Assembly: GCA_024711415.1 (NCBI GenBank)
Contig: JANJSW010000209.1
Span: forward strand, 1 to 11,326
From: Thermomonas sp.
Lineage (GTDB): Bacteria > Pseudomonadota > Gammaproteobacteria > Xanthomonadales > Xanthomonadaceae
Direction of reading: 5' to 3'
DNA length: 11,326 nucleotides
Part shown: positions 6,647 through 9,798 of the stretch, one piece after another
How the letters are laid out: each line of letters begins with the position of its first letter
Position numbering within the stretch: the stretch's first letter is position 1
Position numbers and translations under genes: made by a program
Notes under the pieces: generated by a model
Seen by the model: only the letters and a program-made list of their open reading frames with translations
Told to the model about the DNA's origin: nothing
The model's database searches: none

Positions 6647-7954
6647 TCAGAACAGCGTGGACACGTCCTCGATCGGATGGCCCTTGAACGACCAGTACGC
6701 GACCAGCTTCAGCTTGCCGTCGCCCTGGGTTTCGGTCGTGAAGTACTGAATGCCCATCCCGCGCTTGAACGCATTTGCCCGCTTGCCATCCGACAGGCGG
6801 ATGACGTTGACTTCGCTGAGCCGGCTTTCGATGGCGACGGCGACCGGCCCGCTGCTGGTGCTCTGCCAGGAAAGCGACCAGAAATAATGGCTGTAATTCG
6901 GCCTGCCATCGGGCTGGTACACCGAATCGTAGCTTGTCCAGTTGGCGCATCGATTGACGAGTCCATTCTGGCGCCTGCATCCAGAGGCCACGCCGACGGT
7001 ATTGCGATCGCTCGAAATGGTGAGCGGAATGGACTCGCCCGTGTCGATGTTCAGCAGTGCATAGTCGGAGCGCGTGTCCTTGCCGAACAGCGAGCCAAGG
7101 CCGACGACCGCTTCCTTGAGCTTGTCGCCGGTGTCCCCGTCCTGCTTGTCTCGCTCGACCAGGACATGACGCGTCCCGCCCACGTCGCCATTCTGGAATT
7201 CGGCGATGTGGAAACCCTCCGGCACGGGGAAGGGCGTGACCGTGCCGCTTCGGAAATCGATGGTCACAAGACTGCCGTTACGGATGATCGCAAGGCCGCG
7301 GCTGGTCGGCTTCGCAAAGGCGCCACCTGCTGTGCTGCCGTCCTTGCCCAGATAGGAAACCTGGTCGCCGCGGCTGCCCAGCGTGCCGACCAGCAGCGGC
7401 GAACCACCGGCATGCACGTTCAAATGCTTCACCAGCGCAGAACCGTTTCCGGTATCGACGATGTAGCTGACTGCGCCGCTGACGCCATCCGCGCCGAAGT
7501 CGGTGATCGCGCCGTCGGCATCCAGATAGGGTTTTCCGTTGATGGAGAAGCCATCCTTGCGGCGCTCGAACACCACGAACGGCCCGGCCGCATCCATTGC
7601 CTGGAGCTGCCGCGCCAGCTCGGCCTTGTCCACGGGGTCTGTTGCTGCCGCCTGCACGACAGCGGGAGCGGGCTCCGGCTCCGGCATGCGGCCGAACAGC
7701 CCCCCTGCCGACCGCGCCGCGTTTTGCAGTCCCAGAATGCTGCCGAATGCACCTGCGCTGGTTTCCCGGAAGTTTCTGAGCATGACCTGCTCCTGCTCCG
7801 GCGTCATTTCGCCCATGCCGCTGGCTTTCAATTGCTTGCGCAGCTGCGTCAGCATTTTTTGTTCATCCTTCGATGGCGTGGCGTCCTGAGCGGAAGCAGA
7901 ACATGCGAGGAAGCAGGCAAGGGTGGTCGCAAGAAGCTTGGGGAACGAAGCCAT
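6647..7954 (-). CDS. Exported protein of unknown function with propeller-like repeats
   Basis: 435 aa, family not recognised. ATG 7954 is chosen over an upstream in-frame start because AGGAA lies 6 bases before it and a clean signal peptide follows: MASFPKLLATTLACFLACSA, likely cleaved after ASA (residues 20-22). A charged, probably helical region (25-80) and a Pro/Ala/Glu linker (90-105) precede a beta-rich domain (125-435). In that domain four spaced segments share a strand plus D/S-T/S-G turn pattern: SYIVDTGNGSALV (163), VTIDFRSGTVTPF (230), ALLNIDTGESIPL (299) and NVIRLSDGKRANAF (383). This looks like beta-propeller blade edges. Two mature cysteines (C326, C336) could form a disulfide. 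It is last in the minus-strand run headed by the ECF sigma factor, 50 bases after the lipoprotein gene. A periplasmic or surface location is inferred. Confidence 0.8.
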   Translation of the reverse strand: MASFPKLLATTLACFLACSASAQDATPSKDEQKMLTQLRKQLKASGMGEMTPEQEQVMLRNFRETSAGAFGSILGLQNAARSAGGLFGRMPEPEPAPAVVQAAATDPVDKAELARQLQAMDAAGPFVVFERRKDGFSINGKPYLDADGAITDFGADGVSGAVSYIVDTGNGSALVKHLNVHAGGSPLLVGTLGSRGDQVSYLGKDGSTAGGAFAKPTSRGLAIIRNGSLVTIDFRSGTVTPFPVPEGFHIAEFQNGDVGGTRHVLVERDKQDGDTGDKLKEAVVGLGSLFGKDTRSDYALLNIDTGESIPLTISSDRNTVGVASGCRRQNGLVNRCANWTSYDSVYQPDGRPNYSHYFWSLSWQSTSSGPVAVAIESRLSEVNVIRLSDGKRANAFKRGMGIQYFTTETQGDGKLKLVAYWSFKGHPIEDVSTLF

Positions 7955-8004: not shown

Positions 8005-8391
8005 TCAATCTGCGGCGGCGGGTGTTTTTCCCGCGGGCTGTGCCGGCTGCGGCGTGATCGGACCGTAGATGCAGGCGACGGCGCCATTGGTCATCGCCAC
8101 GCTGTAGCGCAGGTCGCAGTTGACTGCGGCGAAGATGACCGGAAGTTGCTCGTTGCCCCAGCTGCCGGGAAGGAACACGATCTTTTGGCCGGGCTTGCAG
8201 GACTGGGCGACCTCGTCATGTCTCCAGACGCCGACTTCGCACAGGGCGTTCTGGTCGATGGTTAGCTCTGTTGGCGATGCTGGTTGGGCTTTGGTGTCGC
8301 CCGTGGCCGGAGGTCGCTGTGCGCAGCCAGAACTGAGGACGCTGGTAAATACGCAGATGGCGGCGCAGGTACGCAGGTTCAGGCCGGTCAT
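8005..8391 (-). CDS. Putative four-cysteine lipoprotein, unknown function
   Basis: 128 aa. The N-terminus is MTGLNLRTCAAICVFTSVLSSGC. A hydrophobic stretch ends at SSGC with C23 as the probable lipidated cysteine, although the -3 position is Ser rather than Leu, so the lipobox is imperfect. The mature part has a Pro/Ala/Thr linker, a compact core with exactly four cysteines (C51, C65, C92, C107) that probably form two disulfides in the periplasm, and a Pro/Ala tail. The core includes GQKIVFLPGSWGNEQLPV and NCDLRYSVAMTNGAVACIYG. I do not recognise the family. The ATG (8391) overlaps the TGA of the broken upstream gene as TGATG, so translation was probably coupled to it. The Shine-Dalgarno is weak (AGG about 9 bases upstream). 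Loss of upstream translation through the frameshift could lower its expression. Confidence 0.72.
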   Translation of the reverse strand: MTGLNLRTCAAICVFTSVLSSGCAQRPPATGDTKAQPASPTELTIDQNALCEVGVWRHDEVAQSCKPGQKIVFLPGSWGNEQLPVIFAAVNCDLRYSVAMTNGAVACIYGPITPQPAQPAGKTPAAAD

Positions 8392-8614
8392 CAGTGCGTA
8401 CCTGCGAATGCGGAGGTGTTGCTGCGAGTGGTAGAGGCGACCACACGGTAGACGCCCCAGGAGATCGCGGAAATGCCCATCAGTATTCCGAAGCGGAACG
8501 CCGCCAGTCCGCCGAGAATCGTGGTGACGCCGACCAGGCAACCGACTGCAGCGCCGATCCAGGTGACGATTCGGGCGAGATTCGGGCGAGATTCGGGTAT
8601 TTCGGCATTTCCAT
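8391..8614 (-). pseudogene. Small two-TM membrane protein gene, frameshifted by an 11-bp tandem duplication
   Basis: ATG 8614 has an ideal Shine-Dalgarno (AAGGAG, 7 bases upstream). Its frame gives MEMPKYPNLARI, then junk (SPESSPGSAL...), ending at TGA 8482-8480 after 44 aa. A second frame, with no usable start codon, begins at 8570 and encodes a typical membrane protein: IVTWIGAAVGCLVGVTTILG, then GLAAFRFGILMGISAISWGV and a short tail ending at TGA 8393-8391. The two frames meet inside the tandem tract GATTCGGGCGA (8568-8597). Removing one 11-bp copy joins them exactly into a 70-aa protein with a short cytoplasmic head and two helices. Its stop would overlap the lipoprotein ATG (TGATG), as in a coupled operon. 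Either a recent inactivating duplication, a reversible on/off switch, or an assembly error. Function unknown. Confidence 0.8.
8568..8597. repeat. 11-bp direct tandem repeat, 2.7 copies
   Basis: GATTCGGGCGA at 8568-8578 and again at 8579-8589, followed by the partial copy GATTCGGG at 8590-8597. The period of 11 is not a multiple of three, so gain or loss of one copy changes the reading frame of the small membrane gene in which it lies. Flanking bases break the periodicity on both sides. Confidence 0.95.
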
Positions 8615-8673
8615 CTACGGGCTCCTTGCGCGTCAGGGATGGTGGTTGCGGGGATCAAGCGTTTCGTGGGTGG

Positions 8674-9798
8674 CTACTGGGCTTGAGTGTCGTCGAACAC
8701 CGTGATCGAGCTGGCGCGGCTTTTGCTGTCCGGGGGTGTTGTCTCCACCGTGAAGCTGGGTCGCGTGGACTTCTTGATCGTCGCCGTGGCCGGCTTCTGG
8801 TCGCGCAGATAGGCCATCGTGGTTTTCCCTCCCGGCGCCAATGCGCGTAGCTGCTCCATGACGTCCTGCGGGCTGGTGACCGGCTTGTCGGCAATTTGCA
8901 GGATCACGTCGCCGGGTTGCAGATGCTCAAACAGTTCGCCCCTGTCAGTGTGGAGGACCAGAACGCCGGAATCCGTACCGAAATAGCGGCCCAATCCAGT
9001 GTCCACGCTGGCCAGGTTGAGGCCGTTCCAGCGGAGGGCGTCCACCAAGGGAGACAGCTGGCAGGCGGTCTCCTTGCATGTATCGATCAGGCGCACGACC
9101 TCGGCGCCGATGTTCACCCGAATCCCTTTTCCGGGCAGGGAGGGGACGCTTACTTCCCGCGGGGCATTTACTCCTTGCAGGGTCCATAGCGCATCCACCA
9201 CCCCGCCGTGGATGTTGTCGGCGGTGATCTTGTGCGCATTGCCATCCGCGTTTGCCAGCACGGCGACGTTGCCGTCGAAGCGCATTCCGCCGGGAACCGC
9301 AAGAACGCGTTCACCGAGTTTTGGCGTGATGGAGACGCGCCCCGCCTTGCCGTCGCGCTTGTAGTCCAGGGTCACCGGCCTGGTGGTGTCCAAGGTGGCC
9401 AGGAGGGCGCGCGCCCGGTCCGTGCGCAAGGAAGCATTGCTGGCATCCAGTGGCTGGCCGTCGATGGCGACCAGGATGTCCCCGCTCTTCAGGCCCGCTG
9501 CCGCCGCAGCGCTGTCCAGAGTGACTCCTGCGATGCGAACGCCTTCCTCGGCAGTCGTCAGGATCACGCCGATAACCGGTTTGCGCGGCGCATTGCGCTG
9601 GGCCTGCGCGCCCATCGAATGGGCGACGCTCAGGCTGATGTAGCGTCTTGCGGCTTCCTCCAGAGCCGCGCGAGCGGCCTCCAGTTCTTTCAGTGCGTTT
9701 TGCTGTCCGACAGCAGGCGTGTCTTGCGCCAGCGCACCGCTTGCGTTGGCGAGCCCCAGCGCAAAGGCCAGGGCGCCGCGTAAAAGGGAAGAGTTCAT
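8674..9798 (-). CDS. Exported protein with two PDZ domains and no protease domain
   Basis: 374 aa. The N-terminus MNSSLLRGALAFALGLANAS, then GALAQDT, is a signal peptide cut near residue 25. A short charged helix (34-55, NALKELEAARAALEEAARR) follows. PDZ domain 1 is at about 75-158 (PVIGVIL, IAGVTLDSAAAAAGLKSGDI, LVAIDGQPL). PDZ domain 2 is at about 262-342 (LGRYFGTDSGVLVLHTDRGE, LQPGDVILQIADKPV). The segment between them (160-260) holds C241 and C246 (CKETAC), a possible disulfide. DegP/DegS/HtrA-type proteins also carry C-terminal PDZ domains, but no trypsin-like His-Asp-Ser domain is present, so this is a binding or scaffold protein, probably periplasmic. ATG 9798 has only a weak Shine-Dalgarno (GAGAAAG); the frame is open further upstream but that part is antisense to nothing recognisable and lacks a signal. 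It lies 40 bases after the anti-sigma gene. Confidence 0.85.
   Translation of the reverse strand: MNSSLLRGALAFALGLANASGALAQDTPAVGQQNALKELEAARAALEEAARRYISLSVAHSMGAQAQRNAPRKPVIGVILTTAEEGVRIAGVTLDSAAAAAGLKSGDILVAIDGQPLDASNASLRTDRARALLATLDTTRPVTLDYKRDGKAGRVSITPKLGERVLAVPGGMRFDGNVAVLANADGNAHKITADNIHGGVVDALWTLQGVNAPREVSVPSLPGKGIRVNIGAEVVRLIDTCKETACQLSPLVDALRWNGLNLASVDTGLGRYFGTDSGVLVLHTDRGELFEHLQPGDVILQIADKPVTSPQDVMEQLRALAPGGKTTMAYLRDQKPATATIKKSTRPSFTVETTPPDSKSRASSITVFDDTQAQ

Follow-up and report, generated by a model that had tools for sequence, protein, structure and literature searches.

The window, i.e. the whole stretch of 11,326 nucleotides of Thermomonas sp. DNA that was analysed, holds a small hydrophobic membrane gene whose reading frame is broken by a short tandem duplication, with a lipoprotein-like gene behind it. 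The features of the locus are as follows.

8005 to 8391, minus strand: lipoprotein-like protein of 128 aa, intact frame
8364 to 8406, minus strand: 12-bp perfect inverted repeat (arms 8364-8375 and 8395-8406) with a 19-nt loop
8389 to 8393, minus strand: TGATG, in which the membrane-frame stop overlaps the lipoprotein start
8391 to 8579, minus strand: query piece of the membrane frame (62 aa and stop); 98% identity to P0001, a 70-aa in-frame protein
8433 to 8444 (junction approximate), minus strand: site of the missing 27 aa of the protein P0002, a conserved block absent in the window and in P0001
8478 to 8482, minus strand: TGATG, in which the stop of the 44-aa frame overlaps an internal membrane-frame ATG; possible reinitiation point
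8480 to 8614, minus strand: 44-aa frame from an ATG with AAGGAG upstream, parting from the membrane frame at the tract
8568 to 8597, no strand: 11-bp tandem duplication, with GATTCGGGCGA in two full copies and an 8-bp partial one (period 11, 2.7 copies)
8674 to 9798, minus strand: PDZ-domain protein, upstream

The tract was found to be a perfect period-11 repeat (100% match), which confirmed the two copies and 8-bp partial copy given in the preliminary description. Its score of 60 is the highest among the tandem repeats listed for the window. Its self-match is 19 bases, whereas 300 dinucleotide-shuffled versions of the window gave at most 16. A 22-mer of the tract occurs at a single site in the draft genome of 2,127,985 bases, where no second site was detected with up to two mismatches allowed. 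Within the tract the 8-bp word GATTCGGG recurs every 11 bp, three times in all. The tract therefore shows the mark of a microhomology-mediated duplication, namely a short direct repeat flanking the unit and still present as a partial extra copy; it also shows that of a contingency locus, a non-triplet tandem repeat that alters the reading frame.

Analysis of the minus-strand frames showed that the frame starting at the ATG at 8614-8612, with its AAGGAG upstream, enters the tract and ends at 8480 after 44 aa, and that the frame leaving the tract is the membrane frame, which is open from stop to stop over 8391-8654. This division is as first described. The membrane frame contains no ATG, GTG or TTG ahead of its internal ATG at 8480, and its near-cognate codons include CTG at 8636, ATA at 8600 and ATC at 8570, among others. 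From the internal ATG, within the TGATG at 8482-8478, 29 codons lead to the stop, a TGA at 8393-8391 that overlaps the lipoprotein ATG at 8391-8389. Inspection of the tract by eye revealed no classical slippery heptamer, as would be sought for programmed frameshifting.

The 62-aa membrane-frame piece was searched against 5.77 billion proteins at E values up to 1, and two proteins were matched, P0001 and P0002. P0001, known as a protein only, has 70 aa in one frame and occurs on four contigs (longest 22,322 bases). It differs from the window piece at one residue over the 62 aa, and its N-terminus consists of the window's ATG-frame residues MEMPKYPNLARI. The 70-aa form that had been predicted by joining the two frames is matched by this known protein. 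P0002 has 97 aa, also in a single frame, and is 56% identical to the window piece. As P0001 is in frame and begins with the ATG-frame residues of the window, the frameshift distinguishes two close relatives and does not reflect an unusual start. The possibility that the membrane frame uses a conserved non-ATG start was considered and found to be unsupported, as an in-frame M-P-K lies near the start in 22 of the 26 proteins of the family described below and as the window's own membrane frame offers no ATG, GTG or TTG ahead of 8480. A scan of named genomes, from which records very near the window's own were possibly omitted, gave no relative, and among 395 genomes of the taxonomic family the window's own sequence was the sole match.

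The frameshift by the 11-bp duplication is probably real. An assembly or sequencing error is an unlikely source of the extra copy in a gene that is truly in frame, even though the window is contig 177 of a fragmented draft genome (352 contigs, 78.6% complete) and the closely identical P0001 is in frame. P0001 differs at another residue and is therefore not merely the same sequence read correctly. A 30-bp tract fits within a short read, and a mistake of exactly one 11-bp unit would be unusual.

The membrane protein family comprises 26 proteins, including P0002 and P0001, that were found by a search with P0002. Sixteen of them are 92-95 aa long, and all except P0001 (25 of 26) carry the C-terminal pattern [QEK]AQ[IV][EDA][TA][RC]N, which was drawn from the same alignment. 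P0001 shows a 27-residue alignment gap, and the same gap is present in the window piece. It corresponds to about residues 58-84 of P0002 and takes in 12 nearly invariant columns, while the other 70 residues of P0002 hold 16 that are invariant or nearly so. The 70-aa form is, from this alignment, a shortened member of the family. The residues of P0002 that fall in the gap are bordered by VVAS and VVAY, which makes a deletion between short direct repeats, as judged from the protein, likely. Because the gap is common to both sequences and the duplication is found in one only, the loss of the block is probably the older event; as only two sequences are compared, P0001 could instead be a revertant. 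Compared with P0002, both P0001 and the window have W in place of G and R in place of L; a nearly invariant glycine is kept in the window and replaced by A in P0001.

Among 24 congeners, no convincing relative of the membrane protein was identified. Weak matches in two of them (G013 and G015; E 0.007, 36% identity) fall within 508-aa frames that resemble each other and appear to belong to a different protein. The membrane family is rare in the genomes searched: its profile matched the window's own genome and no other, in sets of 398 from the order and 369 from the class. A search of plasmid and phage records with P0002 was negative. At 4977-5411 of L038, a 31-kb contig classed as viral, lies a complete family member, with an upstream 697-aa frame that resembles a replication protein by eye.

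Searches of domain libraries gave little for this family. DUF4282, a small membrane domain of Pfam, matched P0001 weakly (E 0.0092), and the scores of 17.0 bits for P0001 and 13.7 for the window piece fall short of the curated cut-off of 27. P0002 gave no match to DUF4282, two of 25 family members matched it at E up to 1, and nothing in Pfam exceeded the cut-off for the family. NCBIfam, queried with the window piece only, gave no match, and PHROGs, queried with four family members, gave only E values of 0.12 or worse. The structure predicted for P0002 from 25 family rows is one long helix over residues 7-94 (mean pLDDT 81.8; range over five models 62.0 to 81.8), with a pTM of 0.38 that is too weak to decide the fold. 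The two-helix arrangement proposed earlier is absent from this low-confidence model. The result is a small membrane family with a sharp C-terminal signature and no above-cut-off model in the libraries searched.

The adjoining lipoprotein-like family is common to many proteobacterial genomes and metagenomes. It gave 194 protein matches, among them the window's own; 120 were listed. Eighteen named loci, all proteobacterial, were also found. Five cysteines are invariant in 16 aligned sequences, together with a block of consensus WGNEQLPVIFAAVNCDLRYSVALTNGAVTCIYGPITP; no match to Pfam or NCBIfam was found at E up to 1. The 24 congeners gave one strong match (G011) and two weak ones. None of the 18 named lipoprotein loci showed a member of the membrane family by the tail motif or by tblastn of the 62-aa piece. 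Among the matches listed, at least three pairs of a membrane-family protein and a lipoprotein have longest contigs of equal size, namely P0002/P0004 (101,346), P0124/P0005 (4,349) and P0125/P0014 (1,849), suggesting that the membrane gene and the lipoprotein gene travel as a pair.

Also upstream, near the PDZ-domain gene, are an ECF sigma factor and a protein in the usual anti-sigma place, a label given by position and with no family match. The PDZ protein has strong matches in five of the 24 congeners and weak partial ones in three more. Beside the five strong matches an anti-sigma-like relative was present in all five cases and a sigma factor in four, the fifth contig ending there. Up to 1.5 kb behind these congener PDZ genes, no relative of the membrane gene or of the lipoprotein was detected at E 1e-4. 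A 435-aa protein lies at 6650-7954 in the window and has no relative at E 1e-6 in the 24 congeners; relatives of it were observed near the lipoprotein gene at two of the 18 named loci, Dyella sp. C9 (L026) and L027.

Three occurrences of GATTCGGG at 11-bp spacing are what is expected from one slip between two 8-bp words. Comparable microhomology pairs are common in the window, where eight others with 8-bp words and one with a 9-bp word have spacings of 9-25 bp, and the substrate is therefore ordinary. A further tract, with a 9-bp unit, is located at 130-148. The sample of the organism's own genome consisted of 80 contigs (420,003 bases), 16 of which read N, leaving 376,966 bases on 64 contigs, or 18% of the genome. 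Seventeen perfect tandem tracts were identified in these bases; four were non-triplet, all with self-matches of 12-13, and none of the eight tracts with a self-match of at least 14 was non-triplet. The tract at 8568-8597 is the strongest non-triplet one in the sample and the window together, as is predicted both by a weakly constrained lesion and by a single switch locus. A set of contingency repeats was not apparent in the sampled 18% of the genome.

The best reading of these observations, and one that we regard as fairly probable, is ordinary slippage in a decaying small accessory membrane gene. The membrane gene and the lipoprotein behind it would form a rare accessory pair, of which the membrane gene would be losing its function. 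The first step in the order that we infer would have been an in-frame deletion of 27 codons that removed the densest conserved block, a state common to the window and P0001. In the lineage of the window, replication slippage between the 8-bp words would then have added a second 11-bp unit close to the start codon and put the gene out of frame, a change that the same slippage could in principle revert. The preliminary description had held a contingency locus and a fresh lesion to be equally possible; the lesion is now better supported because the densest conserved block is missing from P0001 as well as from the window. As a counterpoint to decay, the intact frame of P0001 and its 98% identity could mean that the 70-aa form works or has taken on a new role.

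As RNA, the inverted repeat at 8364-8406 would form a hairpin in which the weak ribosome site of the lipoprotein is paired and its ATG lies in the loop. By eye, the ribosome site at the lipoprotein ATG is no more than weak. The predicted folding energies are -21.5 and -22.9 kcal/mol in 51 and 61 nt (z -3.8 and -3.4, respectively), while in a 91-nt stretch z is only -1.7 and 12 of 200 shuffles fold as well. Inverted repeats of at least 12 bp with loops up to 25 occur 11 times in the 376,966-base sample, and only one of these has a loop above 6, so that a hairpin of this kind is rare in the sampled part. In Thermomonas PRO1 the lipoprotein has GGAGGAG just ahead of its presumed ATG, and no membrane-family member was found near it by the tail motif or by tblastn of the 62-aa piece. 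Coupling of the lipoprotein to the membrane frame through this candidate hairpin is plausible, given the hairpin over the weak ribosome site, the TGATG overlap and the GGAGGAG of PRO1, where no membrane-family member was found nearby. In P0004, which is 87% identical to the window lipoprotein, a His replaces an Arg within one hairpin arm, so conservation of the stem may be incomplete there. The frameshift had also been expected to uncouple the lipoprotein. The coupling itself is upheld as plausible; full uncoupling is not, since the 44-aa frame ends in a TGATG whose ATG lies in the membrane frame, and ribosomes reinitiating at 8482-8478 would still reach the lipoprotein start. The effect may therefore be buffered.

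A contingency locus, in which the tract toggles the membrane protein, and through coupling the lipoprotein, at a useful rate, appears quite improbable. The non-triplet repeat does lie immediately after the start codon, the in-frame form is known from P0001, and the hairpin over the lipoprotein ribosome site would pass the effect on. Against this, the tract has only 2.7 copies, no equally strong non-triplet tract is present in the 376,966 sampled bases, both forms lack the conserved block, the 24 congeners have no convincing relative, and the TGATG may buffer the frameshift. For a unit of 11 bp, the available part of one source on such loci (PMC11868660) names no threshold of hypermutability. 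A minimal two-state switch, whereby the 11-bp slip sets ribosome access to the hairpin that hides the lipoprotein ribosome site, toggling the membrane protein and tuning the lipoprotein, is very improbable. That the frameshifted arrangement works in its present form, with a 44-aa leader, a TGATG stop, reinitiation into the membrane frame and then the lipoprotein, is hardly credible in spite of the two TGATG overlaps in series (8482-8478 and 8393-8389), as reinitiation would yield a piece of only 29 codons and P0001, P0002 and others start MEMPKY within one frame, no leader form being seen among the relatives found.

With ordinary slippage in a decaying gene as the preferred reading, the locus illustrates that a frameshift resembling a phase switch reads otherwise once the gene family is aligned. 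No paper combining Thermomonas with phase variation was found in the literature searched. The following comparison draws on the available parts of the cited sources. The tract resembles simple-sequence contingency loci in that its tandem unit is non-triplet and lies close to the start of a membrane gene, and is unlike them in its 2.7 copies, in the lack of a set of tracts in the sampled genome and in a gene without its conserved block (PMC11868660; PMC7911514). It shares with the frameshift indels and scars of M. tuberculosis the property of a small indel that could revert (PMC8339072), and with copy change in promoter tandem repeats that of a copy change that could revert, although those repeats lie in promoters and this one in a coding frame (PMC12817950). 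Compared with both of these systems, the window tract is a single sequence and not population data (PMC8339072; PMC12817950). Microhomology-mediated tandem duplication has been described in ssp1 of fission yeast (PMC13207564). The present case concerns a bacterial gene, with a tract known from one assembled sequence, and is like ssp1 in its short microhomology pair, its one duplicated unit and a coding-region frameshift that is reversible in principle (PMC13207564).
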